The notes beneath the pieces were generated by a model. It searched no databases. It was given only the letters and a program-made list of their open reading frames with translations, and was not told where the DNA came from. 64,000 nt of DNA, taken from NCBI GenBank assembly GCA_022457155.1, contig JAJGOT010000352.1, positions 62,001-126,000 of the forward strand, read 5' to 3'. Of the stretch, positions 429 through 59,000 are shown piece by piece (positions within the stretch are counted from its first letter, which is position 1; the number at the start of each line of letters is the position of its first letter). The translations under genes and the position numbers were made by a program. The stretch is from Cladopsammia gracilis (Eukaryota > Cnidaria > Anthozoa > Scleractinia > Dendrophylliidae).

Positions 429-3400
429 CTGCGAATAATAGAGAAATCGCAAAGATAAAATAGCTAACATCACATCTCAGATCGGATGTTCGAGATCTCG
501 GAAACGAGGTACGAACAAGGCGGCAAAGAGGTGAAATCTTCACGAGTCAAATGGCTTACAAGTGCCGGAGCTTATAACCCACTTTATTTTCTGTCGGTAC
601 GAATCAACTGAGAGTATTACTACTCTCCCATAGATGGTATGCTAGTCCATCACAGTCCCCAACATAATATGGCATTGATACACTTGGACGGAGAGAGAGA
701 ATGTAAAGCAAAGTATCTTACCTAAGGAAAAAGGAAGATGGCAAAGAAACTAAACTAAACTAAACTAAACTAAACTAAACTAAACTAAACTAAACTAAAC
801 TAAACTAAACTAAACTAAACTAAACTAAACTAAACTAAACTAAACTAAACTAAACTAAACTAAACTAAACTAAAGTAAACTAAAGTAAACTAAAGTAAAC
901 TAAAGTAAACTAAAGTAAACTAAAGTAAACTAAAGTAAACTAAACTAAACTAAACTAAACTAAACTAAACTAAATTAAACTAAACTAAACTACACTAAAC
1001 TAAACTAAAATCATGGCGTTATAATGCTGCAAAAGAACGATAATATAATATCAGGGGCGGATCCAGGGGGGGGGGGGGGAATGGGTGAATTTTCACCCCC
1101 TTTTTCTGAGACCCTTTCTTTCTTTTTTCTAAAGTATTTCTCAAATAAATAATATTTTATTAATATTTTATTAAAATTTCACCCCCCATTTCAAAATCCT
1201 GGATCCGCCCCTGAATATAATTCTCAATAAGTGTCCGAGGTGGTCCAGACCGTTGTTATCTAAGGTCTTCCTGCCACAATTTATGCATTAGGTTCGGCTC
1301 ATGAAAAGTTCGGCGTCTGAATCAAAGCCGTTCCCAAGCCGAAATTCCCGGGTGAGCCAGGCGGGAAGAACGACTGAGCCGTTTCAAATTCAAATAGCCG
1401 TTCTTAACTGATTCAGACGCCGAACTTTTCATGTACTTAATTCAACGTATTAGGTTCGGCTCATGACAAGTTCGGCGTCTGAACCGGGCCTCAGGTTGAA
1501 AGTCCGATGCACTAATCACAATACTATCGAGGCTCCGCAAGTGCAGTGCGCACAAAGGAAGCAATAACAATTTTGCTTACAATGTTTTCCCGTTGAAAAC
1601 AGAACTCACTAACGCACAAGCTTCTAATCTAGGGGCGAATTAAATAAACTTATTATTCCTAGTCGCTTCGTGCTATAAACTAAAGAAACTGAAAAGATAT
1701 TTGTAGCTATTGAACACTTGAAGAAATTTGCTCAAAATCTTGAACTATTGTGATGAAATTTTGATTGGCCTTCGCGGGTGAGCTAGGAACATTTGTTGTA
1801 CAATGTATGAGCAAATTAAAGTACAAAATTTAGCATAATTCTCAGAAAAATACAATAAAAGTCACATCGTACAGTCCCAATATGCGATAGATTCGAAGAG
1901 GAATTCATCTCAAATGCCTCAACAGAAAATAAAATAACACGTACAATCCACAACCTAGACTTGCCACAAGTCCCCTCCAATATATATTTTCGTTAAGTTT
2001 GGTTCTTCCGCGCGCAAATGTATCGAATGAAACTCGACTAAAAAAGCGAAGGTCGACTTGTGGCAAGTCCATCCACAACCTCTAGAAGGTTGCTGAAAAA
2101 GAGGCCATCCTACCTTAAGCTCAAATAATGGACCAATAAGTCGTCCGAGTTGGTTTTCTACCAAGTAACTGAGAACTTTGAAGGCATGTTTCGTCATTTC
2201 TTTATCCACGTCTTCGTACGTTCCGCCGGGTTTAATTATATAAAACAGCAGCGACGCCTTTTCTGTGCTGTTCATTGGTGCAGGGCAGTTTTCGTCAAAA
2301 TTATTGAGGTAAACTTGCGCGAACGTTATATGGCTCCCATCATCTTGATGAAGTAACTCAGATATTTTAGTCTTGAAATATGTTTCCAAAAGGCAAAACT
2401 CTTTCCAAGTGAATTTAAAATCCACTTGAATGTACACTGAAGGCAATGGCTTTGATTGTCCTAAAATGGAAAAGGAAACAAGTAAGGGGTTTCAGTCCAT
2501 CTACAATTGAACTTTCCTCCCTCGTTTTCAGACGTCACTCTTTGGTTTAGACAGTACAGAGCGCGTGAAAAAGGTCTGAAAAAAGGCTTCTGACTCTTAA
2601 CTTCTATCTACTTCCAAAGCCCTCCCTTGTTTCAAGGCGTCCCTCTTTCGTTAAGCGCGGCGCGCGTAGAGTTCTGGGACGATTTCCTTTCCAACAAGCA
2701 CACGATCCCTGTTTGCCCGCCCTTTTCTAAACAAATGCAATGCCGGTTGCTTGGAGACAAGGCAGAGGACCCTTATTATACACACCCTCGTGATTGGTTC
2801 AGCAAAAAAGGAATCCCCTGTGGCGTATATTTCCGAACAGTATTTAAGGGACTCGATCATTGGGGATCTTTTAGGGTAAGTCTTTCTAAGTCCAGTTGAC
2901 CCCATTTGTCGGTAAACGGTTTCATTTTCATCTTCATAATCTTCTCTGCAAATCAGTAATTAAAAATAGCTTATTTAATTAACGTGTTGACAGTAAAAAA
3001 ACCTTCTTTGATCGGTTGACAGTTAATTGAAAATTTTAGCATTTTAAGAGCTTTATAATTAAGTAACGCCTTTTTGACGGACGTCCACCATTAGTCACAT
3101 GTAGCCATCAGCGGTGAGGACTAACAAAACATGCCAAAAAAGGGGTACAATCAAAGTATAGAGCAAGGCGGATACTACGTAGAACATTTAACACGACAAC
3201 GACATGATAGCGCCCAAACTGAAAGCCACAATGCAACCGTGGACAGCTGTTACGACCTGGTTGGGTCTCGTCAGCACGATGTAGCAGCAAAAAGATAGAA
3301 AAACTTGCGCGAACGCCAATTCTCTACCAAATCGCACGTGGTGATGGCAACAGATGAGAGCTCGGCCGGTGCGATTTGGTAGAGAATTGGCGTTCGCGCT

Positions 3401-3801
3401 AGTTTTTCTATCTTTTTGCTGCTACACCGTGCTGACGAGACCCAACTAGGTCGAAACAGCTGTCCACGGCTGAGTTTTGGCTTTCAGTTTGGACTCTATC
3501 ATGTCGTTGTCGCGTTAAATGTTCTACGTAGTATCAGCGTTGCATGCTCTATACTTTGATTGTACCTCTATTTTTGGTTGACTAGATCTGTTATAGATCC
3601 TATGTACACCGGCAGCATTTTCGTTCGCGGTCCTTTGCTTCTTGTTTACAAAAAAGGGGACATTTAACTTCCGGTTGACGTATGACTTTCAAAAACATCT
3701 GGCTTATAAGTTCCCTAATATCTAAACAAACACGAAAACTAACCTGTTATTAAAGTTGGTGTGAACAGCAATAGAACGCAGGCCAAAGAAAGGAACCCCA
3801 T
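294..3801 (-). CDS. Gene A: single-pass membrane protein with SEA-like ectodomain (3' end outside window)
   Basis: Three exons join in frame on the minus strand: 3801-3744 (signal peptide, phase 1), 2460-2114 (ectodomain, phase 0) and 428-294 (membrane helix, phase 0). The joined product is 180 residues so far: residues 1-19 are a hydrophobic leader, about 20-135 the ectodomain, and 136-180 a linker plus helix. Donors GTTAGT, GTAGGA and GTAAGT and pyrimidine-rich acceptors are visible. The ectodomain shares W-x-x-F-C, a second Cys and D-V-D...T..A with genes B and C, which also have the same exon layout and phases, so the three are paralogues. The last donor (at 293) points to cytoplasmic exons beyond position 1. 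I do not recognise a named family; a SEA-type fold is my inference from alternating strands and helices. Its function as a receptor or adhesion protein is unproven. Confidence 0.72.
745..1009. repeat. (TAAAC)n pentanucleotide array
   Basis: About 260 bases of near-perfect TAAAC units with a central block of TAAAG variants. It lies in an intron of gene A. It is not a TTAGGG-type telomere repeat. Confidence 0.95.
1052..1214. mobile_element. Short inverted-repeat element (AGGGGCGGATCCAGG ends)
   Basis: The 16-base end TCAGGGGCGGATCCAGG is repeated inverted at the other end (CCTGGATCCGCCCCTGA). The inside is G-rich then A+T-rich and has no ORF. It is a non-autonomous foldback/MITE-like element in a gene A intron. 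Confidence 0.75.
1299..1433. mobile_element. Inverted-repeat element with 25-base ends
   Basis: Ends CATGAAAAGTTCGGCGTCTG and its reverse complement are near-perfect. A third partial copy of the end follows at about 1450-1486, so this is a repeated family. There is no coding capacity. Confidence 0.75.
2114..2460 (-). CDS. Gene A exon 2: SEA-like ectodomain
   Basis: The exon starts after acceptor ATTTTAG (phase 1) and ends at AAG|GTAGGA (phase 0), giving 116 codons with the split Gly. It opens PLPSVYIQVDF, followed by WKEFC in a predicted helix, a second Cys (ENCP), an NST glycosylation sequon, then YEDVDKEMTKHAFKVL and a last strand. Order beta-alpha-beta-beta-alpha-beta matches the exon in B and C. 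Reading past the donor gives ~50 residues without paralogue support. Confidence 0.75.
2640..2895. other. Both strands open; possible promoter-like stretch
   Basis: Both strands carry overlapping ORFs of 84-90 codons with no recognisable domain. The plus strand has a CCAAT-like GATTGG, TATTTAAG and a good donor (AGG|GTAAGT at about 2875). A noncoding first exon of a plus-strand transcript is possible, but nothing downstream confirms it. Confidence 0.2.
3237..3278 (-). ncRNA. Hammerhead ribozyme copy with mutated core
   Basis: Minus strand reads CGTG-CTGACGA-GACC...GGTC-GTAA-CAGCTGTC-CACGG. Stems I, II and III and CUGACGA are kept, but the essential GAA is GUA, so it should not cleave. Confidence 0.65.
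3427..3469 (+). ncRNA. Hammerhead self-cleaving ribozyme, type I layout, intact core
   Basis: Reading 5'-3': stem I CCGTG (3427-3431), core CTGACGA (3432-3438), stem II GACC/GGTC with loop CAACTA (3439-3452), core GAA then stem III ACA/TGT with a two-base loop (3456-3463), cleavage base C at 3464, and stem I return strand CACGG (3465-3469). Every universally conserved hammerhead core base is present (CUGANGA, GAA, H17 = C). The very short stem III is typical of hammerheads in Penelope-like elements and animal retrozymes, which often act as dimers (known biology). Whether this copy is transcribed or cleaves is untested. Confidence 0.82.
3744..3801 (-). CDS. Gene A exon 1: signal peptide
   Basis: ATG followed by a compact hydrophobic leader (MGFLSLACVLLLFTPTLIT) and a phase 1 donor G|GTTAGT. 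The phase matches exon 2, giving ...LITG-QSKPLPSVY. Too short to stand alone as an ORF. The start is chosen because it is the only ATG before the leader. Confidence 0.7.
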
Positions 3802-4269: not shown

Positions 4270-4334
4270 CAACCTCGTTCCCAGGGTCTCTCATCTTCGG
4301 GGCGGGAAGATGAGAGACCCTGGGAACGAGGTTG
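4270..4334. mobile_element. 65-base hairpin element flanked by 9-base direct repeats
   Basis: AACCTCGTTCCCAGGGTCTC and its complement form an almost perfect 28-bp stem around a GC loop. Direct repeats CCATTGAAA sit immediately outside (4261-4269 and 4335-4343), like a target-site duplication. Half copies of the same end occur near 5067, 6044-6076 and 26104-26118. Confidence 0.75.
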
Positions 4335-4369: not shown

Positions 4370-4492
4370 CATGAAACCCCTGGGGCAAGGCTGAAACCCC
4401 CTGAGGTAAGGCTGAAACTCCTGGGGCAAGGCTGAAACCCCTGGGGCAAGGTTGAAACCCCTGGGGCAAGGCCTTTAACCCCTGAGGTAACG
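4370..4492. repeat. ~21-base minisatellite (GCTGAAACCCCTGGGGCAAG)
   Basis: Five to six imperfect head-to-tail copies, differing mainly in CCTGGGGCAAG versus CCTGAGGTAAG. It sits next to the 65-base hairpin element. Confidence 0.85.
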
Positions 4493-4761
4493 CTGCCAAC
4501 TTGAAATACGTCAAAAATCCTGGAGTTTGTTGCGGCGTAAAAAGTGTTGAAATGTCTTCGTTTTGTTCGATCAACGGATTCAGATTACCAGAAAACAAGA
4601 CGACTGCTTATCGCTGGAAATAACCTCCGAAGCCGCCATTTCATTGTATCCTAGGTAACCCAATACTCATAAACGACAAACTGCAAGGCTGATCTGACTA
4701 CGTAAAAAGGTAGATTTTGCGAGACACCAATGCGACAGAAACCGATAAAGCAGGGTAGCAA

Positions 4762-4806
4762 CCGCGGACAGTTGTTTCGCTCTTATATTGGGGCTCGTCA
4801 GCGCGG
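4762..4806 (-). ncRNA. Second hammerhead ribozyme with intact core
   Basis: On the minus strand: stem I CCGCG, core CTGACGA, stem II starting GCCC and returning GAGC (one mismatch), core GAA, stem III ACA-AC-TGT, cleavage C, stem I return CGCGG. Stem I differs from the 3.4 kb copy on both sides in a compensatory way (CCGUG/CACGG versus CCGCG/CGCGG), which supports a selected RNA structure rather than chance. Stem II is weaker here. Confidence 0.75.
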
Positions 4807-5439
4807 TGTAGCTTGTAACAAACTAAGAACAAGTACAAGAAAGCAGTCGTAAATAGATTGCACAATGACCCGTACACAATATCAAGTTCCGTACCTTGGA
4901 ACCAACTTGTCACCCGCATCACGCGTGCCACATCACGTGTTACGGGGAACAAGCCTCCACGGTTCTTGGAGTATATTGACAGCCTGTCCAGGGATTTCTA
5001 CGGCTGGCCGCCATTTAATTTTGAAAGCGGAAAGGTCCTGGGGACGAGGTGGATCGCACAGGTGCCAACCTCGTTCCCAGAGTTCCACCGCGGTCAAACG
5101 TTCGAGGCGTTTTTCGTTCTATTTAGTGGGATTTTATTTAATATTAAATGGAAATATGGGCAAGGATGAATAAAAAGATTAGTTGACGTTACTATCTTTT
5201 AATTTTTCTCACGATGATGAGCTTTTTTCCTTTGAAAACTGACCAAAACTCTTTGCGCCTGATCAAAATTCTGTTGACAAATGGCGCCGACAATTCTGCA
5301 GTTCACAGTTTTTAAACGCCTAGAACTTTTTTAGTAAACTTTCAAAACGTTTCGTAAATTGACAGTGTATTGGCAATATATTAAACTTTAAACAGTGAAA
5401 ATGACAATTAAACCTTAACTTTTAAGTACTTTGCTTAAA

Positions 5440-28600: not shown

Positions 28601-31600
28601 CAGTCGGTTATATCTGACTGAAATCATGTTGCGCTGAACTGAAACTTCGCAAACAGTGTTATTTCGTGGCCAGCTTCAAGCTTGTAAAAAAATCGCAGGA
28701 TCCTGAGATGGTCAAGTTAGCCTCCGGGACTACCTTCAAGGGTAAAACCAGGTCTAATTTATTCTTCCTGTATTCAGTGTGCTGCAGGAACTTGTCACAA
28801 GATAGCACAGACTTGTTTACTGATTTCAAGAGAGGAAAGACTGAGGCTTGACTTTGTCACTTTTAACCACCTCCCATCGGTACAAATGTACTTTAGTGTG
28901 ATTATTGCCCATAAATCCAATCTCTTGTCATTCTTTTCCTCTTGAATTATTAGAGTATGGAGCTTGCTTTCCTATGAAGCAGTTGCTTCTTCAACCATAA
29001 GCAATTTTAAAGCAGCAAGTCACCCCTAGTGCCTAGTCACTTGTGCAGGATTCAGACCACCCCATTCCCAGTATCAGTGCAAACTATTTTTGGAGGAAAC
29101 TTGTCTATGTATCTAAGTTATCTCTCCACAATGGTTCTCTGAGCCCAAACATTAGCTATGCCATCCCGATGAGGCCTAAGAAGGCCAAAACAGCTGTCCA
29201 TGACTGCTAATACTTGGGCTCACTATTTAGTTTTTTTGGTGGATCGAGGGGTAATGTCCACTACCAATGTAGCCATAGTGCCCTATTTATTTGCTATACC
29301 TAAGCAAGGGCTGCAATGATACATTTTCTCACGATACGATACATATCTCGATACGAGTGCCACGATACGATACACGATACGATACATCATTACATACACT
29401 TTTCCACCAACACGGGAAGACATTTTGCGACGAACCGCATGTTTTTCCCGTGGGCGTGCAAGACTGTGTCAGCTGACAACTAATTATGAAAAATATGTGT
29501 CGGAAGTATCCGAAGCTATACGAAGCAAGGATGGAACTTTCTTGTCCCTTTGTTTAATAAATAGCTATAAAAAGGCTTGAACTTGGGTAAGGAGTCATTT
29601 AAGACAGTAATAACACTAACCAAAGCACATTTGTGCTGGAGTTTGACTCATTGTTTAACCATATTGATCGAGTCATGCTTTTCCCTCCGAGTTTTTTTAT
29701 GCGTTGCATTAGTGCATGTAAATTTATGCACGCATATTTTAGTTTCACTGGTCTGATTGGTTGGCACGCGACCTCTTGATTTCAAGATGGCGGCAAAACC
29801 TCTCCGCGTTTTGACTTGAGAAGCAGAAGAGAGAATTACAACCGGCGTACAAGTTTTCATGACAATGCAAGGTGTTCATGGATGGATAGGACCGTTTGAT
29901 ATTGTGTTCGCCGCTTATTGCTGTGGGATTTTTGTTCCGGTAAGTTTTGTGTTTTATATAACTTGCCATTGTCGGCAGCTGAATGTAGTGAATGCAGTGT
30001 AGTCTTATTTTTTAGACATCATTAATTTTTATGTTTCTCGGCAAAAGCACTCAAAACACTCGGGAAGCAATACTGCAATGGGTTAAAGACACCACGAGTT
30101 CAAGCTGTAATGTCGGGACAAAATCATAGAAACTGTAACTGAAAATATTGCGAAACTCAAAACCTATACCTTATACCCTAAATCCTCTATTAAGCCGGCC
30201 GAAATGTTTGGGTAGCAGAATATGCTTGATGACATCAATAGCAACCCAGACAATGGATTGCTGGAGTACTACCACAGTAATACTTCCTTCAGATAACACA
30301 CCAGTTAAATGATGAGCTGTAGGAACAAAACCACAGGGAAACCAACCCAGATAGTCCTCTCACGTACTTACCAAGCAGAATACAATGATGAGGACAAGTA
30401 AGACAATAAGCAGAGCGATCCCTATAGCGATGCCGATGCGCTGGGCTTCCGTGTACTTGTCAACATATTCAGACGTAATATCCTTATTATCTGTACCATT
30501 TATAAGTTCGACTTTTCTGACCTAGAATGATACAAGAAAAAAAAATCGTTAGAAAAAATGGAATGGCAGATCTAGAAAAGGTAAACATAAAAGGAAGACA
30601 GAAACTTAACAAGCGTCCGTTTTATGGCCATGTTGGACTTTTAGCTTTCGACATTACTGATCCAAGACGTTTGCATTAATGTAAATCCTCTTTTAAGCTC
30701 CGCTCTCAAATAAGCCCCCCTCCCCTTTTTAGTGCAAGAAATTTATTAATCCCCACCCCCCCCCCCCCCCCTCTCTTCTCTCTTTTAAGCCCCCTCTCTT
30801 TCCCTTAATAGAGGGGTTTTATATGTATGAACTACTCGTGCATTTCGTGATTTATGGGCACGAGTGATGTTTTGAAAGTTCTCAAATTGCACTCGCCGTC
30901 ATTGACCAATCAGAAACTGTATATTTTGTTGAGTTTATTATAAGCAGATTTACGGTATAAATTACATACGGACCCACAATAATGTATTGTATATTAGTAA
31001 TGACATAGTTCACCATTCACCACAACTCTCTGTTGTGAATGTAGCTCAATGGACAAAGCATCTGTCCCTTGTACAGATGTCATGGGTTCAACTCCAAGGT
31101 GGGACTGGTACTTTTTGTTATAAACACTTGCTTGTGTATACCTTAGGTGCCAAAGGTTACTTTTTTATCGAATACTCGTGTGCAATTATTGAGCTATCCT
31201 AAAAAGGCCACAACTTTAGCTCAGCTAAAAATTTGCAATGCGGACTATGAACAGCTGGGCTGAGTTGAATAAATCATCTTGTCATCTTGTCATCTTAATT
31301 AATTCACGGCAAGCAGGTCCAGGGAGCGGAAAGATGGTGAATGGGACCAAAGTTCCCACAGTGCTTTTTTAACCCTTTCACTTGGCCCAGAGTCAATTAT
31401 GGAGACATGTAACGTAGTTCTAACTTTTGAGTCTGTGGACAGAATCCTATAGTGTTACCATTCAAATGAAACCTCTTCAGCAGTACTTTTGCATGGTACC
31501 ATTTGTTTTTCAATATTTTACAAAATGGAATCTAGGATGTTTCTTGAATTTTGATTTTTGGTACTCTTGCTAGGCTAGGGTTAACAACCTAAGTATACCT

Positions 31601-33587
31601 ACTTTGCCTTCAAACGTTTTATCGAGTAGTATCATTCTTTTGTTCACCCAGCAGTAGTACAGAAACTTGAAAGCTTTAATAGTCATCTTCTCGTCAGTAT
31701 CGTCTTTTGACACAAATCGTTCGGTTTTGGAGATAAACAACTTTACTATCGCCTTCTTGCTGTGATATAAGGTCCTGTTTTTGCACTTTTTATCTACATC
31801 ATAAAATTTGATTCTATCAAGTGGTACATGGTGATAATGCAACCCTTTGAATTCCATCAGGTCGCGCGAGAGCGCCTCTTTGAAGAGGGTAGTCAAGTAA
31901 CAGAATCTTCCCCATGGCATGGAAAGGCTCATTTGGACGTACAGGCTGGGTGTAACAGTGGCATTTTCGACATTTGGTGAAGAGGAAGGAGAAGCTGTTG
32001 AAGATGCAGTGCTTGAAACTGATTTTGACGGGGAAGGTGACATAGGGACTTTATCTGACGGCGGAACGGACGATTGGACAGTTGGGGAAGATGAAGATAA
32101 AGGTGTCGTTGCTGTTGCCGGTGCCTGGCCAGGCAAAGAAGATGAAGGTGTTGCTGCTGCCTCCTTTGTTGTCGCTTGGACAGCTGAAGACGATGGGACA
32201 GTTGGGGAGTATGAAGATAAAGGTGTCGTTGCTGCTGCCGCTGTTTGACCAGGCAATCGAGATGAAGGTAGAGGTGTTGCTGCTGTCTCCTTTATTGTTG
32301 CTTGGACACCTGAAGACAATGTGACAGTTGGGAAAGATGAAGATAAAGGTGTCGTTGCTGTTGCCGTTGTTTGGCCAAGCAATGGAGATGAAGATAAAGG
32401 TGTCGTTGCTGATGCCGTTGTTTGGCCAGGCAATGAAGATGAAGGTGTTGATGTTGCCTCCTTTAACAACGACGATAAAGTCGTTTGTCCTTCAACTGAA
32501 TAAAACGGGACACAAACATAATTCAAAATTGTACAATTTACTAAAAGTAATACTCCTTTTGGTTGCATGAAACAGTTCCAGAAACATTAAGAATTTACAC
32601 TACAGGTTTTACAGCACAGAGTACAGTTGCACCGCCCAAATGACGAATTATCAAAACACTGTGTAAAAACTAATAGAAGTGCTGCCGTTCCAGATCACGT
32701 ATTTAATAGACTGCTAGCAGTCCCTATCTGGACAGTCGAGCGGGAGAGTATCACGCCGGTGATCGGCGACGGAGCGAGCGAAAGTAATACGAGCTGAGCT
32801 GTTTAACCCTTTCAATCCCAGAGTCAATTATGGAGACATGTAGTGCAGTTCTAACTTTTGAGTCTGTTGATGAAATCCTATGGTGTGACCATTCAAATGA
32901 AACCTCTTCAGCAGTACTTTTGCATGGTACCATTTGTTCTAACTTTTGAGTCTGTTGATAAAATCCTGTGGTGCGAGCATTCAAATGAAACCTCTTTAGC
33001 AGTACTTTGTTCTAACTTTTGAGCTGAAAAAGCAACTTTTACGAGCTGAGCTGTTTAACCCTTTCAATCCCAGAGTCAATTATGGAGACATGTAGTGCAG
33101 TTCTAACTTTTGAGTCTGTTGATGAAATCCTATGGTGTGACCATTCAAATGAAACCTCTTCAGCAGTACTTTTGCATGGTACCATTTGTTCTAACTTTTG
33201 AGTCTGTTGATGAAATCCTATGATGTGACCATTCAAATGAAACCTCTTCAGCAGTACTTTTGCATGGTACCATTTGTTCTAACTTTTGAGTCTGTTGATG
33301 AAATCCTATGATGTGACCATTCAAATGAAACCTGTGTGGCAGTACTTTTGCATGGTACCATTTGTTTTGCAATATTTTACAAAATGAAATTTGAGATTTT
33401 ATATGGATTTTTATCTTTGGCACTCTTGGGAGGTAAAGGGTTAATGATTAGCTTGCCCGCTCGACTGACTAAAAGTAAACAACGCATTGCAGTCTACGAA
33501 CGTATTTAACTGGCAGCAGCTGAAGACAGACTTGAATCTGAATGAGAGAGAAAGTTTTAATCAGCAAGCTGCCAGTAATTTATGTGC

Positions 33588-44340: not shown

Positions 44341-47300
44341 TATTATTATTTTCTCTAATAAAAACACAGTCTTACTTACAAAAGTGTCATCGTCATAAGC
44401 CAAGTTGCCATGGTTACGAACAGTATAACCGTTGTAACTTTCTTCCTGTTTTTCATTCTCATCATCGTATGCCATTTTACCATGGTTACGGACAGCATGC
44501 CCATTGTAGCCATCTTCTCGTTTCTCATACTCATCGTCGTATGCAATGTTGCCATGGTTACGGACACCATAACCATTGAAGCTTTCTTCGCGTCTGACGT
44601 CATACCCATCCTGTTGATCAAGATTATAAGCCGGTGGCTCTTCCGTCTCTATTGTGGGCTCGGATGGTTCAGTGCGGATAACATGAAGTGGGATGCCACT
44701 TACAGAAACACCATGGACAGGTTTCTTGTTCTTGATGTTTTCTCTCAAATTCTGAAATTGTTGTGGCATGTTGTTGTTGAAAAGAAAGATTAATACAATT
44801 ACATCCATGTAAGTTATTAGGAACCAGTCAGTATTTGTTTGATATTTTCTTTTTAATTGTTGCACTAAGTGGACACGTTCAGTTACTGAAGAAAACCAAC
44901 GACAATGCCGGGACGAAACTGTCGAGGTAAATAGTTCTCAGTTCACCTCGGTCAGGGAATTCGAACCCTTTGCTTTGTGTGGTCCCCACTTCCTTCAGAC
45001 TAGGGCTAACGCTCAGTAGGGAATTTATGGCGGGTTGTTCTCAGCACAAACATTAACCACAGCGGAGTGAAAGGGGCACCGTCAAGGAGATTTGGTGTCG
45101 ATTCAAAAACCCTAATAAGCCACTTCGGAAAATACCATAATACTCTTTAAAGTGCAGGTTTGGGTGGTGCTTGATGTAAGCCTGATTTTTCCAATTTATA
45201 TTATTTTCCGCACGAACTGCGAAGTGCTGTGCTTCAACTTATTGGCAATTTGTGTACGGTGCACATTTGTATACGAACACACAATGCCACGTCACAGCGT
45301 TCCTACATGTACTCTGAATTCCATTGTGCCATTCTAACAAAGGAGACTTGAATAATTACACCCCGGTGAGGCCGAGTTTGCACATAAACGATTATTATGG
45401 TAGTTTTCGAAGTGGCCTAATTAGTTTTGTATTAGTAGCTATAGTTTATATTACCAACAAAGCAAATTTGTGCGCTCTTCTGATTTCGTCATTTTTTGCG
45501 GCATCCAACAAGCGTCACATTTTCATTGCTTCTTATCTTCACGAGGGTTCCCTGAACCCAAGTATTAGCTATGCCATCCTGATGAGGGTTAACGGTATGT
45601 ACTTGGTGTATCCCTTATTATTTTGTATTTAAACACTTAGTTTTTACTTCAGTAGAAAAGGAAGATAAAAACAGCAGAATAGGAAATCGAACCCGGGCCG
45701 TATGATCTGCTCCATGCACTACACCACCGAGGACTAGCTGCCGGAAACTGTAATTTTTAAGGGATATTAGATAATATGCTGCTAGTCCAGACCATATATA
45801 AGAACTAACCCTTTCGATACACTGGAAATACTGGAATCAGTGCTAAAACCTAAATACTAAAATCAGTGCTTCAACCCTAGATACTGTAATCCGACCCTAA
45901 ATTACACCGCAATATATCTAAATACATTACAATAAGGGATACATGAACTACCATACATTATGATCAGGGATACACCACTGAAGTACCTAGGGGGTTAACA
46001 AGGCCGAAGCAGCTGGCAGCTGCAGCATACTTTGGCTTACCATATATATTTTTTGTAGTACATCTAGGGTTAACGCTTGCTGCTAATTTGGCCATAATGC
46101 ACTAATTAGTGGCTATAGTTAACCTAAGCGCATTTGTGCGGTGGTATTCACATTTTCTTTTCCCGTTGTTGTAATCTGATCGTTAAAAATACAGCACGAA
46201 TCAAAACTGTATATCTTAGAAAAACTTGATTCTTACCACGCATAATGTGATACTGACGATAAGAAAGACGATTATGAGAGCAACAGTTATTCCGATCCCC
46301 ACTCTTGTTGATTCGCTCATGCCTTCTGCGATGTCCGGTTTGTCCTTTCCCATGATTTCAACATTGTTGACCTGTCGCCGAAAAATACATCTATCAGGGA
46401 AACTATGTTCTCTCAGAACCGAATTAATGATATGCTCATGTTCCAATATCGGCTTTCAATTGAGTACGGATGAAATGACAACGTGTGAGCAGCCTACTTT
46501 CCTCAGTGTGGTACTGTTTGTTATGCAGTGCAAGGTGGTTCTGACTTTGGGGTCTGTGGATGAAATTCTAAAGTGTGACCATTCAAATGAAAGCTATTGA
46601 GCAGTACTTTCCTGTGGTACTGTTTATTATGCTGTACAAGGTGGTTCTAACTTTTGAGTCTGTGGATGAAATCCTAAAGTGTGACCATTCAAATGGAAGC
46701 TACTGAGCAGTACTTTCCTGTGGTACTGTTTATTATGCTGTACAAGACGGTTCCTACCTTTGAGTCTGTGGATGAGCATTACTTTCATTCGATTTGTTTC
46801 GGTTTTGACCACGTCTTGGAGGGAGTCGGAAAAGGTGACTGATCCAAACATTTACCTGTCCAATGAAGACTGAATCCAAAAGAGCCATCTTCTTGTTTCT
46901 CCAGTAATCATGCAGTTTCGTATAAGCAAGAATCGTGATATTTCTGTCGACATCTCCAGTGCCCAGGTCCTTTTCATTCTTTGAGACGAAGAAATCCAGA
47001 ATCGCATCTTTGTCGTTTCCTCCATTTTCACATTGTTTCTTGGAATTCATGAAGCGAATTCTGCTGGCTTTGACCTCATATGGAACAAGGACCTTAGTTT
47101 CGTAAAGCTCTTTGGAAAGTTTTTCTGCGAAGAAAGGAACAAAATGGCAAAACCTTCGCCATTCCATGTCCCACGAAATCCGGACGTAAACGCTTGGAAC
47201 ATCTTCTGTCATGGACTGACACCCTGTCAATGAAACAGTTAAAAAGAAGCTCAAAATAGAGTTTAAATGATTCGGATAGCTGAGAAACAAACCTGGCAAC

Positions 47301-49912
47301 CAAATTTGAAAATCGAGATGTATTTTGCACTCACTAACAGCTAGAAAGATGAATCCTGTTAGCTGGGATCACGATGAACCCTCCAGACTAAAAGGTTAAA
47401 AGGACGGTCTTAAAGGGAACCTCCATTGTTATAACAAATTGACCTTAAATTGTTGGAAATAAAGTCTAAATTAGAAATTTCTAAAAAACAGTTGCAAATA
47501 TAATTTTAGTGTACAAAAAAATGGATATGAATATCGCCTATTTTCGCTTTTAAATTTTCCACGCGCCGCCATTTTGAATATTTATGACGTGTTACGGTTG
47601 TCGAATTGTTGCATACAAAAGAACGTTGATTCTTAACAATAGCGGCAACCATAACAAGTCATAAATATTCAAAATGGCGGCGCGCGGGAAATTTAAATGC
47701 GAAACTAGGCGATATTTATATCCATTTTATTTATACGCTAAAATTATATTTGCACCTGTTTTTTTTTTTAAAATTTAAATTTCGACTTTATCTCCAACAA
47801 CTTAACGTCAATTTGTTCTGACAATGGAGGTTCCCTTTAAAAGAAATCTTTTGACCACAGCACAACGACAAAAATCCTCTCCACCAATGAGTTATATTAA
47901 CAATTCGACAATGTTCTATTTGGATCCTATCACTCAAGTTTATTTAAGTAAAATGAAATCAAAAGACTATTAACTTTTAAACAGTAAAATCCACACCATA
48001 GATCAAACCGGAACACGGAAATGGAATAAAACTATCCCACTGAACGATAACGAGTGGTCTCAGTGTTTTAATCTCATACCGAAACTATGATCGAGAACAG
48101 AAATTAATAGAATTTCATTTTAAATTTATTCATCGGTTATTTGTTACCAGAAAGGAACTTTGTAAATTTCGCATCTAGTGATTGTATTTATTGTGGTGAA
48201 GAAGACTCTACAGAACATACCTTTAAAGACTGTTCCTTCACCAAGACTTTCATTGGGAAGACTCTAGAATGGTTTAATAATACTTATAACAGTAATTTCG
48301 CTCCGAGCGAAAAGGAAATTCTATTTGGAATTCTTAGAAACATCAAAACTGAAGAACTTACGAGAAGACTAAATTTCACCCTTCTGTTCATGAAGTATTA
48401 TATATATAGCATAAAACTAGATGAGAAATCTCTTTGTCTACAAGAATTTACCCGTAAAATTACTCTGAAATATAAAATTGAAAAATACATATGTTAAAAG
48501 TTATCATCTATCACGGTTAAAAGTGATATTCTTGGCGTGTATATGTATGTGGTGTGTGTACGTGTGCGCTTTTGTTCACGTGTATAAACGTAAAAAGTTA
48601 TTGTTTCCACTGACTGTATTTTTTCCTAAGCTAGTTGAAATTTGTAAATAGTGGTTTTTTTTGTTCATAGGCTATACAACTGTTTGCTGAAGTATTGTAA
48701 ATGTAACGTTGTGTTTTTTGTAAATAAAGTATTTAAAAATATAAAAAAGGTCTTAAAAGGCTACAGAAACGTTTTGCCCACGGTCGCCGAAGCCTAACCC
48801 GGTTTCTGTAGCACGAAGCAACTTGCAGTTTTACATTTACTTCCAGTGGTGCCTGGAGAGCCCACAGGGACCCGAAGGGTCTAAAAAAATTCAGAATAGA
48901 ATAGAATAGAACTTTATTTAACCTGGCACTCCACTTTGCTGAAAGCTATTCTATAGGAAGCCCACAAATGAGAAACAAATAGATTACAAAACAAAAGGAA
49001 AAATAAAATTTTAGCTAATCAGTCTCTAACATTTTCACAAGCAAACGTAGCTCCCGGCTTTTCATAAGCAAGCTTAGTTTTTCACAAGCAAGCTTAATTA
49101 ATTAGGACTATCCAGTCAGGCAAAGTGAATTAGCTGCGAGTACCCGCTGAATAACGCTATCTGCTCTTTGAGCAGTAGCCTGCGCGCAGACGTATCCGTA
49201 TCCAGTCATTTAGTCAGTCACTCGGTCACTCAGTCAGTCAGTCAGTCAGTCAGTCAGTCAGTCAGTCAGTCAGTCACTCAGTCAGTCAGTCACTCAGTCA
49301 GTCAGTCAGTCAGTCAGTCAGTCACTCAGTCAGTCAGTCACTCAGTCAGTCAGTCACTCAGTCAGTCAGTCAGTCAGTCACTCAGTCAGTCAGTCACTCA
49401 GTCAGTCATTCAGCCAGTCAGTCAGTCAGTCAGTCAGTCACTCAGTTACTCAGTCACTCAGTCACTCAGCCAGTCACTCAGTCAGTCAGTCACTCAGTCA
49501 GCCAGGCAGGCAGTCAGTCAGTCAATCAGTCACTCAGTCACGCAGTCACGCAGTCAGTCAGTCAGTCAGTCACTCAGTCACTTAGTCACTCGGTCAGTCA
49601 CTCAGTCACTCAGTCACTTAGTCAGTCACTCAGTCACTCAGTCACTCGGTCAGTCACTCAGTCACTCAGTCAGTCAGTCACACTCAGTCACTCAGTCAAT
49701 CAGTCACTCAGTCACACAGTCAGTCAGTCAGTCAGTTATTCAGTCAGGCTACTGCGCGCAGACGTATCCGTTTTCCGCGGGGAGCAAGGAAATCGGATAC
49801 GTCTGCGCGAGGGCTATTTGGGCAGCCGAGGACAGCAGAAAACATTCATTCTATGGAAAACGTACATACCCAAAGAGCCGATCAGCATCACGAATAATGC
49901 GGCGGATGTCAT
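40372..49912 (-). CDS. Gene C: single-pass receptor-like protein with tyrosine-repeat tail
   Basis: Exons 49912-49870, 47223-46856, 46371-46237, 44751-44376 and 40547-40372 join to 365 residues: a short leader, the SEA-like domain with WRRFC, a second Cys and GDVDRNIT, a helix exon, then a tail with three ~23-residue repeats holding Y-N-G-Y/H-x-V-R-N-H-G and A-Y-D-D. Phases 1,0,0 for the first introns equal genes A and B. The last intron needs the second of two overlapping donors (GTAAGTAAG). The leader exon is short (14 codons) and 2.6 kb upstream; an alternative in-frame ATG at 47299 in the ectodomain exon also gives a hydrophobic start. It is predicted to be a plasma-membrane protein whose tail could be phosphorylated and bind SH2/PTB or phosphatase-fold domains (inference). 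Confidence 0.7.
40849..41036. mobile_element. MITE with GGCCATTTGCACGATG ends
   Basis: Inverted arms GGCCATTTGCACGATGGCGTC / GACGTCATCGTGCAAATGGCC and CTACCAGAATTC / GATTCTGGTAG around ~90 bases. Confidence 0.8.
41211..41861. repeat. 93-base satellite, seven copies
   Basis: Unit starts CTTGTGATGCTAGTCAAGCA. Copies are >97% alike, differing at a few sites (TTGCCCTAA/TTGCCATAA, ACATGCAG/ACATACAG), which implies recent amplification. Confidence 0.95.
41895..42625. repeat. 17-base satellite (CTCTATAATACGGACAC), ~40 copies
   Basis: Runs with few interruptions. The flanks (TATAGACAGTTCACTTGGTC before; TTGGTGTCCGTATTAAGG after) look like the ends of a DNA element whose internal unit multiplied. 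Confidence 0.95.
42760..43840 (+). mobile_element. Broken non-LTR retrotransposon 3' part
   Basis: Frame-broken reverse transcriptase pieces: an ILGPLLFSIYINELPNC-like stretch (about 42800-42850), LAQWLADHKITLNISKSKFM (42945-43015), YNTRNKNN (about 43520) and CIDAWNSLPEQIRTLSINRF near the C-terminus, as in CR1/L2/jockey-type LINEs. An (ATT)n tail follows at 43801-43838. Inactive. Confidence 0.8.
43983..44291 (-). mobile_element. Retroelement C-terminal fragment with (ATT)n tail
   Basis: Minus-strand frame reads EKLNKYKDLEIEVERMWGLK, then TTTVPVVMGALGTIKKG and KITILSTAHLLMQVL before a stop. This is the conserved tail found after the RT in a common animal retroelement group. ATT/ATA repeats flank both sides. 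Confidence 0.7.
44376..44751 (-). CDS. Gene C exon 4: three tyrosine-rich tail repeats
   Basis: Begins after AATTTCAG in phase 0 (NLRENIKNKKPVHGVSV). Then PPAYNLDQQDGYD and three repeats NGY(G)VRNHGN(I)AYDD, NGHAVRNHGKMAYDD and NGYTVRNHGNLAYDD. Each repeat pairs a Y-x-V site and an A-Y-D-D site about ten residues apart. The donor region GTAAGTAAG offers ends at 44380 or 44376. Confidence 0.7.
45540..46050 (+). mobile_element. Hammerhead-like repeat split by a TTAA-flanked insertion
   Basis: AAGTATTAGCTATGCCATCC-TGATGAGGG stops at TTAA (45589-45592). After ~400 bases TTAA recurs (45995-45998), followed by CAAGGCCGAAGCAGCTGG. Together the flanks resemble the 29.2 kb relic. The insert has inverted ends with GTACTT and GTGTATCCC and no transposase, like a piggyBac-type MITE. 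Confidence 0.6.
46237..46371 (-). CDS. Gene C exon 3: linker and transmembrane helix
   Basis: 45 codons, phase 0/0: VNNVEIMGKDKPDIAEGMSE then a helix VGIGITVALIIVFLIVSITL, ending at GTG|GTAAGA. Same length as in gene A. Confidence 0.78.
46480..46770. repeat. ~95-base tandem repeat related to the TTAACCCTTT family
   Basis: Nearly three units with TGAGTCTGTGGATGAAATCC, AAAGTGTGACCATTCAAATG and GCAGTACTTTCCTGTGGTAC. Lies in the intron between ectodomain and helix exons of gene C. Confidence 0.75.
46856..47223 (-). CDS. Gene C exon 2: SEA-like ectodomain
   Basis: Entered in phase 1 after CATTGACAG and left at CAG|GTAAAT, phase 0 (123 codons). SVYVRISWDMEWRRFC, then IRFMNSKKQCENGG, a strand AILDFFVSK, DVDRNITILAYTKLHDYW (with a NIT sequon) and a last strand. 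Both Cys align with A and B, so a disulfide is likely. Confidence 0.78.
47411..47841. mobile_element. Foldback element with ~190-base arms
   Basis: AAAGGGAACCTCCATTGT returns as ACAATGGAGGTTCCCTTT, and most of the arms pair, including CGCCGCCATTTTGAATATTT and its complement. Centre about 47600-47645. Confidence 0.85.
47960..48745 (+). mobile_element. Non-LTR retrotransposon 3' fragment
   Basis: 119-codon frame 48141-48497 with CIYCGEEDSTEHTFKDC, the Cys/His motif at the C-terminus of many LINE ORF2 proteins, and a run to AATAAAGTATTTAAAAAT. The RT core is missing. Confidence 0.7.
49175..49822. repeat. (CAGT/CACT)n array inside a repeated element
   Basis: About 540 bases of CAGT units with regular CACT variants (period often 12). 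The direct repeat GCGCGCAGACGTATCCG lies on both sides (49178 and 49755), and the right side folds into a hairpin (CGTATCCGTTTTCC...GGAAATCGGATACG). The 249-codon Ser/Gln ORF is a by-product. Looser CAGT repeats go on to 50650. Confidence 0.85.
49870..49912 (-). CDS. Gene C exon 1: putative signal peptide
   Basis: MTSAALFVMLIGSL plus donor TTGG|GTATGT, phase 1, giving ...SLG-CQSMTED with exon 2. Chosen by intron phase and position match with A and B. Confidence 0.5.
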
Positions 49913-56041: not shown

Positions 56042-59000
56042 TCAGAATAAAAAGGATAACTGCAAATCTCATATCCGTTTATAGATAACCTGCCTTAAAT
56101 TGAATACAAAATATGTAGGTGATGATCATTTACTAGAACTAAAAGGTGTTGAAGATACTGATGCAAATCAAAACAAATTACTGAGGTCAATGGTTATATG
56201 GTGCTGGAACTCAGCAAAACGAAATGAGCCACTCGACCCCCCTGCTCTCCATACTGATGCCGTACAAATGAACTCAACCTATCAGTTTCCTTTTTAACAG
56301 TTACTACATTTAAATCATGCATCTAACTACGAGGAATTGCTGTCCGTTGTTCAAATGGGACTGTTGAAAACATTGTTGTCCTTCTTTACAACTTTTGGTT
56401 CTGAAATCAAAACAACAAAACAGGATTCGTAAGCCTGTTGGAAAAATATTTAGTTGCAAGTTAACATAGTACACATAAATAGAACCTCAGGGCCGTAGCA
56501 AGCCTTGAAAAAACTGGGGGGGGGGGCACAAATGTTTCGGACCCAATGGACAGGCTTCTGCTCGTCCTTCAGTCTAGGGGGTCCGGGGCATGCACCCTCC
56601 GAAAGTTTATTAAGGAAAAAGGGTAAAGTTAGTACCCAGTATATCACATTGAAGGAGTCGAGTTACCCATTGTTGCCAGTAGTTTTTTTAAAAAACAACT
56701 AAGAGCAGAACTAGTCTCCCCTTTGATGTGATGTTAATCCATCGCAGGGTGACTCCCAGAATTTTGTTAGGTTTCTACGGGATAACGCGACTAGAATATT
56801 TTTTTTTTCGATTCTTCCCACTCCTCCCTGGTTGGCATGCTGGCCATTTCCGAGTTGCCTTTAACCTCTCCATCAAAGCGAGGCTAGGTGCGAAACCTTT
56901 CATATGAAAATGAGTTTTCATTCATATGCAAATAAAACGTATTTGCATGTGAATGAAAACACATTTTCATGTGAAAGGTTTCGCACCTAGCCTCGCTTTG
57001 ATGGAGAGGCTAAAGGAAACTCGGAAATGGCCTATTTATAATTACCTCCGCTGACTCATCGTAGTTGACTGTGTACTCATACAGTGCCTAAACACAAATG
57101 AAAAGAACTTGGTTATAGTGCAGCTTACATTTACGTATACATTGCTTATGTCTTTTGTTGCTTTTTTTTGTTAGTCATTCTCGTTTTAAGACTTTTATAA
57201 CAGAAAATGCTGTTCGCAACAAAAAGATTTGTAAGAGAAAAAGCAAAGACAGGAAGTATTTGAAATGTTCGTTACGTGTAGCAAGCAGCTGCTGAGGTAC
57301 TGAAAGTTCTGTTCACAGCAACGGCAGGTGAGAAAGAGAAATAAAATTTTATAGTTAAGGCTGCAAGAAACAAAAAATGATCAACAATCTTTGATTGCAA
57401 ACGGATACACGCTTAAAATCCAGGTGAAGAATGCACCTCTGCGATACAAAAGATTAAATAACAAAGTGAACGTTAGGAAAATCTTCGATACGAAATGGAG
57501 ACATTAAAACCCGAAGACCTGATATATTTTACATTTATCTGCCAATTTTTAACTCACCTGGTAGATAAAGTTGTATTGTTCCAAGGAACAAACGATGCCA
57601 TGTCGGTCATGCCTTAGATTTTTTGACAACTCAAACACATCAACAACAGATGTCTTGCTTTCCTCGTGACTCTTGATACCGATATCCACTGCGATGTACA
57701 CCCCGGTGAAACCCAAACCATCGCTGAAAGGGAAATATATATCACACTTTTATCAGTTATTTATTACATAAACCCAATGTATGTAAAAGCGTTTTTTTTT
57801 ATCTTCACTGTAAAAGTGAAGTTTTGGAAATCAAGTTAAGGCAGCTACAACCAATACCCACGCACGAGTACCCCGGGTTGCTAGTTTACTAACTTGGTAT
57901 CCGTCTATTAATTATTAACTACAAATTCAAATTTTAAAACTTCACTAAATCTTCAATATTTCATATTTCTATAAATTTTACCAATCCTTTGAGAAAAACT
58001 ATTTCGTCCCAAACATACCCCCAAATCACCCAAATATTAACAAAACACCCCATAACATAGATTTATACTTTAAACATAGGGTTTTTGGATTGCTTGAAAC
58101 CCCCTTGAAAAGTGAACGAGATATTACCATTAAAGCCATGTCAAGTGGCGGAAAAATGGCATTCAGGTTTATCCCCGTCTTAAACAATTTTCGGAAGATG
58201 ACCGAAGTCACTCGATCGGAGAAATCACCATCAGAAAGAGTACTCGGGGTGAATCCGTACAAACGAACGAAGACGTCGTTGGGAATCAGTGGTTGGGACG
58301 GTTTTCGTTTTTGGCGGGAAGCAACTGGGACGGCTTCGACGTACCTAGTATTTTATGGCGGGAAACTACTACTGCGTGTGTAAAACGATAATTAATAGCA
58401 TGTTATGGCTAAAATCCACTAGAAGATAAAGCGGACACAGTACATCATACCTGCCAACTCTCCTGGTTTTATCGGGAGTCTCCAAGTTTTTCATCAAATC
58501 TCCCGGTCTCCCGGTTAGAGCACCAAATCTGCCGGGAAATACCGACCGTGGCCTTTTTCAAATTTTTTTTCAGCAATTTCCTTATTTTCGAGATGTCAAA
58601 AAGGAAAATAAAACAAGAAGTGGATTTAGTGCTCTTATTTGAGCTGTTCTCGATCGACTCGATCGGAAAACGTAAAACAGAACAATACTGTTGTCCTTTT
58701 TGTTTTTGGTCGACAACATTTGGAAGGCCTTAGGGTGATTTTTGGGGGAGTATTGAAACACTGTCGAAAATGACATTCTTACAAATGCAAAGATTTCTAG
58801 ACGTCTCCAGATTTCTGCACATTGGGGGTTGGCAGGTATGGTACATTATGATGCTAAAAAGTTGTAATGATTGCTGTGAAAGGACAATAAAAGTGGCAAG
58901 AATTGAAAATTGCAGCACGAAGAGTAGAGGAAATCTATCTACATTCTGGCTTAGAAGCTATGTTTTACTCCAGTTCTTCAAATAGTTATTATCTACCTGC

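Follow-up and report, generated by a model that had tools for sequence, protein, structure and literature searches.

What is a hammerhead ribozyme with a complete core doing in a foldback repeat of a stony coral, and is it a ribozyme standing by itself? The window analysed here is the whole stretch of 64,000 nucleotides from Cladopsammia gracilis (contig JAJGOT010000352.1, positions 62,001 to 126,000), and coordinates are those of the window unless a locus is named. A preliminary description placed every core base of a hammerhead at 3427-3469, with a stem I of 5 bp, a stem II of 4 bp, a tiny stem III and the cleavage C, set the motif in a foldback repeat within an intron, and considered a chance match very unlikely.

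Type I hammerheads share the conserved core CUGANGA, GAA and H17. The Rfam covariance search that had been named as a check matched RF00163 (Hammerhead_1) at 3426-3470(+), with all 45 model positions matched and 44.4 bits against the curated cut-off of 34 (E 4e-8 in the 64-kb window). A scan for the explicit core pattern CTGANGA-N9-15-GAAACAGCTGTH gave a single occurrence in the window, at 3432-3464(+), and none in 100 dinucleotide shuffles. Both approaches agree that the core is intact, and the motif shows no notable difference from the Rfam model. The stems were found exactly as described: stem I pairs CCGUG with CACGG, stem II pairs GACC with GGUC, and stem III has two base pairs (AC/GU) closed by an AGCU loop. 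Base 3464, which we take to be C17 in hammerhead numbering, puts the predicted cut at 3464/3465. The E value, the shuffle control and 74 further matches in the genome together rule out a chance match to the hammerhead consensus, a reading whose probability is practically nil. Two more matches, absent from the preliminary description, lie at 3236-3280(-) and, marginally, at 4761-4807(-). The former belongs to the left arm of the foldback and also exceeds the cut-off with 43.3 bits; it reads GUAA and departs from the conserved core, which the right-arm hammerhead has in full. The features of the locus are as follows.

3135-3145, no strand: target-site duplication, left copy, 11 bp (CAAAAAAGGGG); the identical 11-mer lies directly outside both element ends
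3146-3648, + strand: apparent inserted element of 503 bp, a head-to-head inverted pair of hammerhead units with a 3' tail, delimited by arms, relatives and duplication
3146-3360 (right limit approximate, about 3358-3364), - strand: left unit, without 3' tail, 95.7% identity with the majority sequence built from 22 unit rows
3236-3280, - strand: left-arm hammerhead (RF00163, 43.3 bits), GUAA for GAAA, predicted inactive
3366-3576 (left limit approximate, about 3366-3369), + strand: right unit body, 96.3% identical to the same majority sequence
3426-3470, + strand: type I hammerhead ribozyme with intact core (RF00163), predicted cut 3464/3465
3577-3648, + strand: 3' tail of 72 bp on the right unit only, from family comparison
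3649-3659, no strand: target-site duplication, right copy, 11 bp (CAAAAAAGGGG), the same 11-mer as the left copy
4668-4955, - strand: C71-family fragment (a related hammerhead family), outside the insertion, 90-91% to L031-L033
4761-4807, - strand: third hammerhead match, inside the preceding fragment, marginal (34.2 bits against the cut-off of 34, permissive Rfam run)

The foldback repeat reported around the motif was confirmed. Its arms, 3163-3337 and 3369-3543, are 93% complementary over a gap-free core of 175 nt, and with gaps the pairing reaches across 3134-3577 at 87% over 451 columns. When relatives are compared, each arm proves to be a single unit of a dispersed repeat of about 220-280 nt. 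The 5' end of the left unit, which is in minus orientation, lies at the centre; the right unit is in plus orientation and is followed by the tail. Since copies of CAAAAAAGGGG stand directly outside both ends, the inverted pair and the tail look like one single insertion of 503 bp.

A genome-wide RF00163 search (878 Mb, 1469 contigs) returned at least 74 matches, every one above the cut-off. The number is a minimum because only the best candidates were scored, and it does not include the matches in the window itself. Among the 120 listed relatives of a receptor fragment of the window, the five named proteins come from the stony corals Orbicella, Porites and Oculina. Our locus set comprises 62 loci (L numbers), among them 12 that show a wider stretch around another locus, and leaves out 24 of the 74 matches. 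Similarity to the window arms that goes beyond the 50-nt motif itself placed 18 loci, the window included, in the window's family; all of them except the window came via the hammerhead model, and this model is biased towards motifs that are intact and paired. Head-to-head partners were found at 11 of the 18 loci and tail-to-tail partners at none. Three of these 11 (L049, L051 and L062) have the same junction, only 23 nt long, and do not count as independent cases, and L060 is also flagged as direct, one of its units being split into two pieces. Only a direct neighbour is present at two loci: L048, the sole same-family direct tandem among the 18, has its hammerheads 279 nt apart, and L036 (4340-4654) is a mixed tandem in which hammerheads of two families lie 282 bp apart in direct orientation. 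The other five are without a partner in 400 bp. Tail matches occur at 12 of the 18 loci and adjoin a unit at seven. A phage collection searched for relatives gave no match. The preliminary reading holds for a hammerhead beyond chance in a foldback, but not for a singular intronic ribozyme, as the genome has at least 74 matches and the motif belongs to a dispersed retroelement with a target-site duplication and has a mutated inverted partner.

Duplications of at least 10 bp were detected at the limits of four of 15 loci, with limits set by eye from BLAST matches: the window (11 bp), L060 (13 bp), L054 (11 bp) and L053 (10 bp); they are absent at the other 11 loci tested. As a control, 27 of 2000 random window pairs gave a duplication of 10 or more, and none of the 12 cross-pairings of the flanks of the four loci exceeds 6. 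The layout of the window is repeated by L060, with an inverted pair, a tail and its 13-bp duplication, and L054 is a single unit, a 221-bp insertion. CAAAAA starts the duplications of both the window and L060 and resembles the unit's own body-tail junction, and the duplication of L054 may partly coincide with the element's own sequence; microhomology may therefore have taken part in insertion. One motif of the inverted pair in L060 (1649-1693) also has a changed A13, with GCAA where the window has GUAA, and the recurrence of a changed A13 in one motif of both pairs is probably due to chance.

Long inverted repeats are also what a MITE or foldback DNA transposon would show, if it carried a hammerhead by chance and was moved by a transposase, and a locus of the C71 family, L001, indeed has 41-nt inverted repeats around its hammerhead. 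Such transposons have their inverted repeats at their very ends and a duplication of fixed length. Here only one arm reaches an end of the element, as a tail extends beyond the other, the duplication varies from 10 to 13 bp, and single units and a direct tandem exist. We consider a DNA transposon very improbable and set it aside on account of the one-sided tail and the variable duplications.

Other hammerhead-like sequences were observed beside this family. Five copies of one hammerhead family (L001-L004 and L009) lie 12-20 kb apart on contig C71, possibly as a duplicated block. In the window, a degraded hammerhead-like motif, CCGATGAGGCC...AAAACAGCTGTC, is present at 29166-29198(+); the Rfam matches up to E 3 do not include it.

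The two units of the window differ little from their relatives. At the identities to the majority sequence given above, the window arms share one derived site, and the 22 unit rows look star-like. In a tree of these rows the window arms were not sisters, and no fork reached starred support. Taken from the sequences, the identities and the one shared derived site fit two copies that were near-identical at insertion and have decayed neutrally since.

Pairing of the hammerhead was evaluated in 37 distinct 45-mers, an alignment that omits the 47-nt match at 4761-4807, the match of L053 and copies identical by eye. Paired cells amount to 95.0%, against 87.9% in shuffled alignments, and the covariation score is 0.272 against 0.155, with none of 500 shuffles as high. 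Cells with changes on both sides number 37, against a shuffle mean of 14.3, a value reached by 0 of 500 shuffles; they lie in helices I and II. Counted by pairs, 4 of 12 have changes on both sides, which 423 of 500 shuffles reached, and none of them is in helix III. Because a structure model served to pick the loci, and because the rows are relatives of one another, these data lend support to selection without proving it.

Whether the right-arm ribozyme would act where it now lies is doubtful. Helix III has only 2 bp, and for the 45-mer the lowest computed energy, -14.3 kcal/mol, belongs to another fold, the hammerhead fold having -8.4 kcal/mol. A single hairpin of -356 kcal/mol is computed for the + strand of 3134-3649 (mean of 100 shuffles, -144); the ribozyme is covered in it, so that little cleavage is to be expected from a transcript spanning both arms. 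No same-polarity partner was matched by Rfam in the window, 3426-3470 being the sole match on the + strand, and dimeric action within the window was set aside for this reason. With arms about 4% from the family majority, a mutated left core and a right core that faces its own antisense, the window copy is probably inert.

These properties also bear on a hammerhead kept in an intron for a host function, as was proposed for vertebrate hammerheads in introns of RECK and C10orf118 (PMC3088659). The intact right-arm core and exon-like ORFs nearby would agree with such a role. We nevertheless regard it as very improbable, even more so than a DNA transposon, and set it aside, since the motif is part of a mobile, multicopy element with a duplication, both arms show about 4% decay, the partner core is mutated, an antisense copy lies in the same transcript, and the intron placement is putative. 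For the + strand ORF 2594-2878, Pfam gave nothing up to E 1. On the - strand, the exon-like ORFs 1958-2491, 31573-32052 and 46757-47368 are paralogous (26-40% identical), none with a Pfam match up to E 0.01, and these three suggest that the host gene may be a - strand gene instead. Three further repeats were observed in the window: a perfect 29-bp inverted repeat with a 7-bp loop at 4270-4334, with a match of about 85% in L052; a tandem array of units of about 20 bp (TGAAACCCCTGGGGCAAGGC) at 4372-4493; and an inverted repeat at 56868-57006, whose shown arms are without mismatch and which has below-cut-off matches to microRNA families on both strands.

The layout of the insertion points to Penelope-like elements (PLEs). 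Inserts of these elements have pLTRs of about 200 bp and an adjacent inverted pLTR, head-to-head being the commonest inverted arrangement; one inverted pLTR may carry a 31-bp tail on its 3' side, and duplications measure 8-10 bp, though not every insert has one and in some families direct pLTRs only are mostly seen (PMC3846280). Minimal hammerheads map to the pLTRs of PLEs (PMC7761336). The window insert resembles them in its inverted repeats of about 200 bp, the head-to-head order, the tail on one unit, the short duplication and the hammerhead in or at the repeat (PMC3846280, PMC11167929, PMC7761336), and its unit corresponds to a pLTR only by analogy. The tail is longer, 72 bp against 31 bp in the rotifer PLE (PMC3846280). 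PLE hammerheads are described as mostly missing the part of helix III that is not conserved. In vitro, hammerhead mutants of a lizard PLE inserted as well as the wild type (PMC11167929), which suggests that cutting may not be needed for the PLE route.

PLEs are marked by the combination of RT and GIY-YIG (PMC11167929, PMC3846280), and in this respect the window's family differs from them. Neither an RT nor a GIY-YIG match was found near its 18 loci: in tblastn searches covering 3 to 9.5 kb per locus and 64 kb for the window, PLE proteins matched at none of them. The queries were three ORFs of L039-L041 and the 120 listed of 393 relatives of the L041 ORF. Of the three ORFs, those of L039 and L041 are above the GIY-YIG cut-off, and that of L040 has no match. 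Two of the 120 relatives, P0186 and P0220, have a precomputed RVT_1 domain, and their sequences continue into the same GIY-YIG end. Ten ORFs near L034, L035, L036 and L038 have no Pfam match to an RT or endonuclease.

Another hammerhead family of the genome, L013-L030, has PLE protein matches at 17 of its 18 loci (16 of 18 with the three local ORFs; endonuclease end) and a second, inverted, head-to-head hammerhead at 12. The tail query gave no match in this family. At the 12 loci with two hammerheads the second copy starts with UUGA (C3 changed) and the first is intact, and in L013 and L022 it is the changed copy that lies in the same sense as the PLE frame. The pair seems to be inherited as a unit in this family and not made afresh at each insertion.

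The window insert could accordingly be a solo pLTR pair of a PLE, the unit being the pseudo-LTR of an autonomous PLE whose reading frame the window copy has lost or never received. The head-to-head order, tail and duplication are the anatomy of PLE inserts, minimal hammerheads map to PLE pLTRs (PMC7761336), and the other hammerhead family adjoins PLE frames; against this, none of the 18 family loci has a PLE protein match in the ranges searched, and the 279-nt period of the direct tandem L048 is too short for a frame between its units. We hold a solo pLTR pair, a narrower form of the explanation we prefer, to be a serious possibility with the odds somewhat against it.

The preferred explanation, which we consider quite likely, is that a non-autonomous hammerhead retroelement of a stony coral, most likely moved by a PLE, left a single insertion at 3146-3648, since decayed. 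The source would be a unit of about 220-280 nt with a type I hammerhead, which presumably cuts unit-length RNA in source transcripts, as in published coral retrozymes. An autonomous element, most likely a PLE, would supply the enzyme that reverse-transcribes this RNA into a new site; the insertion would leave the 11-bp duplication, and a second, head-to-head copy would be made by template jump or self-priming, the 3' tail marking one unit. We infer the cleavage and a circular RNA, and likewise, as no PLE protein matches at the 18 loci, a PLE enzyme for the family. The window copy is probably a dead end of such a retroelement, either a retrozyme or a solo pLTR, moved by PLE machinery. The wider proposal that Penelope-like machinery integrates the non-autonomous hammerhead retroelements of corals is tentative, at slightly less than even odds, and draws on the window and L060, both with a head-to-head copy, a one-sided tail and a duplication of 11 or 13 bp and without a PLE protein match in the ranges searched.

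Autonomous PLEs have been named as a strong candidate for mobilising retrozymes (PMC7229834), and the enzyme that spreads animal retrozymes is unsettled in the papers considered here. A PLE-type insert consisting of hammerhead units only is a footprint that could help to settle it. If our proposal is true, the published idea becomes readable from the structure of an insertion, and head-to-head retrozymes are a new layout.

Among the nearest known systems are the metazoan non-LTR retrozymes (PMC7229834), and more than 6000 type I hammerhead motifs are reported for Acropora millepora in the same paper. The window's family resembles them in its stony coral host, type I hammerhead, unit of a few hundred bp, many copies, the lack of a coding frame found in the unit and a duplication of more than 4 bp. 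Retrozyme units measure about 170-400 nt and contain a type I hammerhead, and so do the units of the family, as shown by L048 (279 nt apart) and L054 (221 bp). No paper on retrozymes in inverted or head-to-head order appeared among the titles and abstract openings listed, and the word "inverted" is absent from the main text of PMC7229834. Published coral retrozymes are described as tandem repeats of 2 to 62 units (PMC7229834), whereas head-to-tail tandem copies are absent at the window and confined in its family to one same-family tandem among 18 loci (L048) and one mixed-family direct pair (L036), against 11 of 18 loci in head-to-head order. The ribozyme is of a known kind and ordinary for a coral genome; its mirror-image layout is the unusual part.
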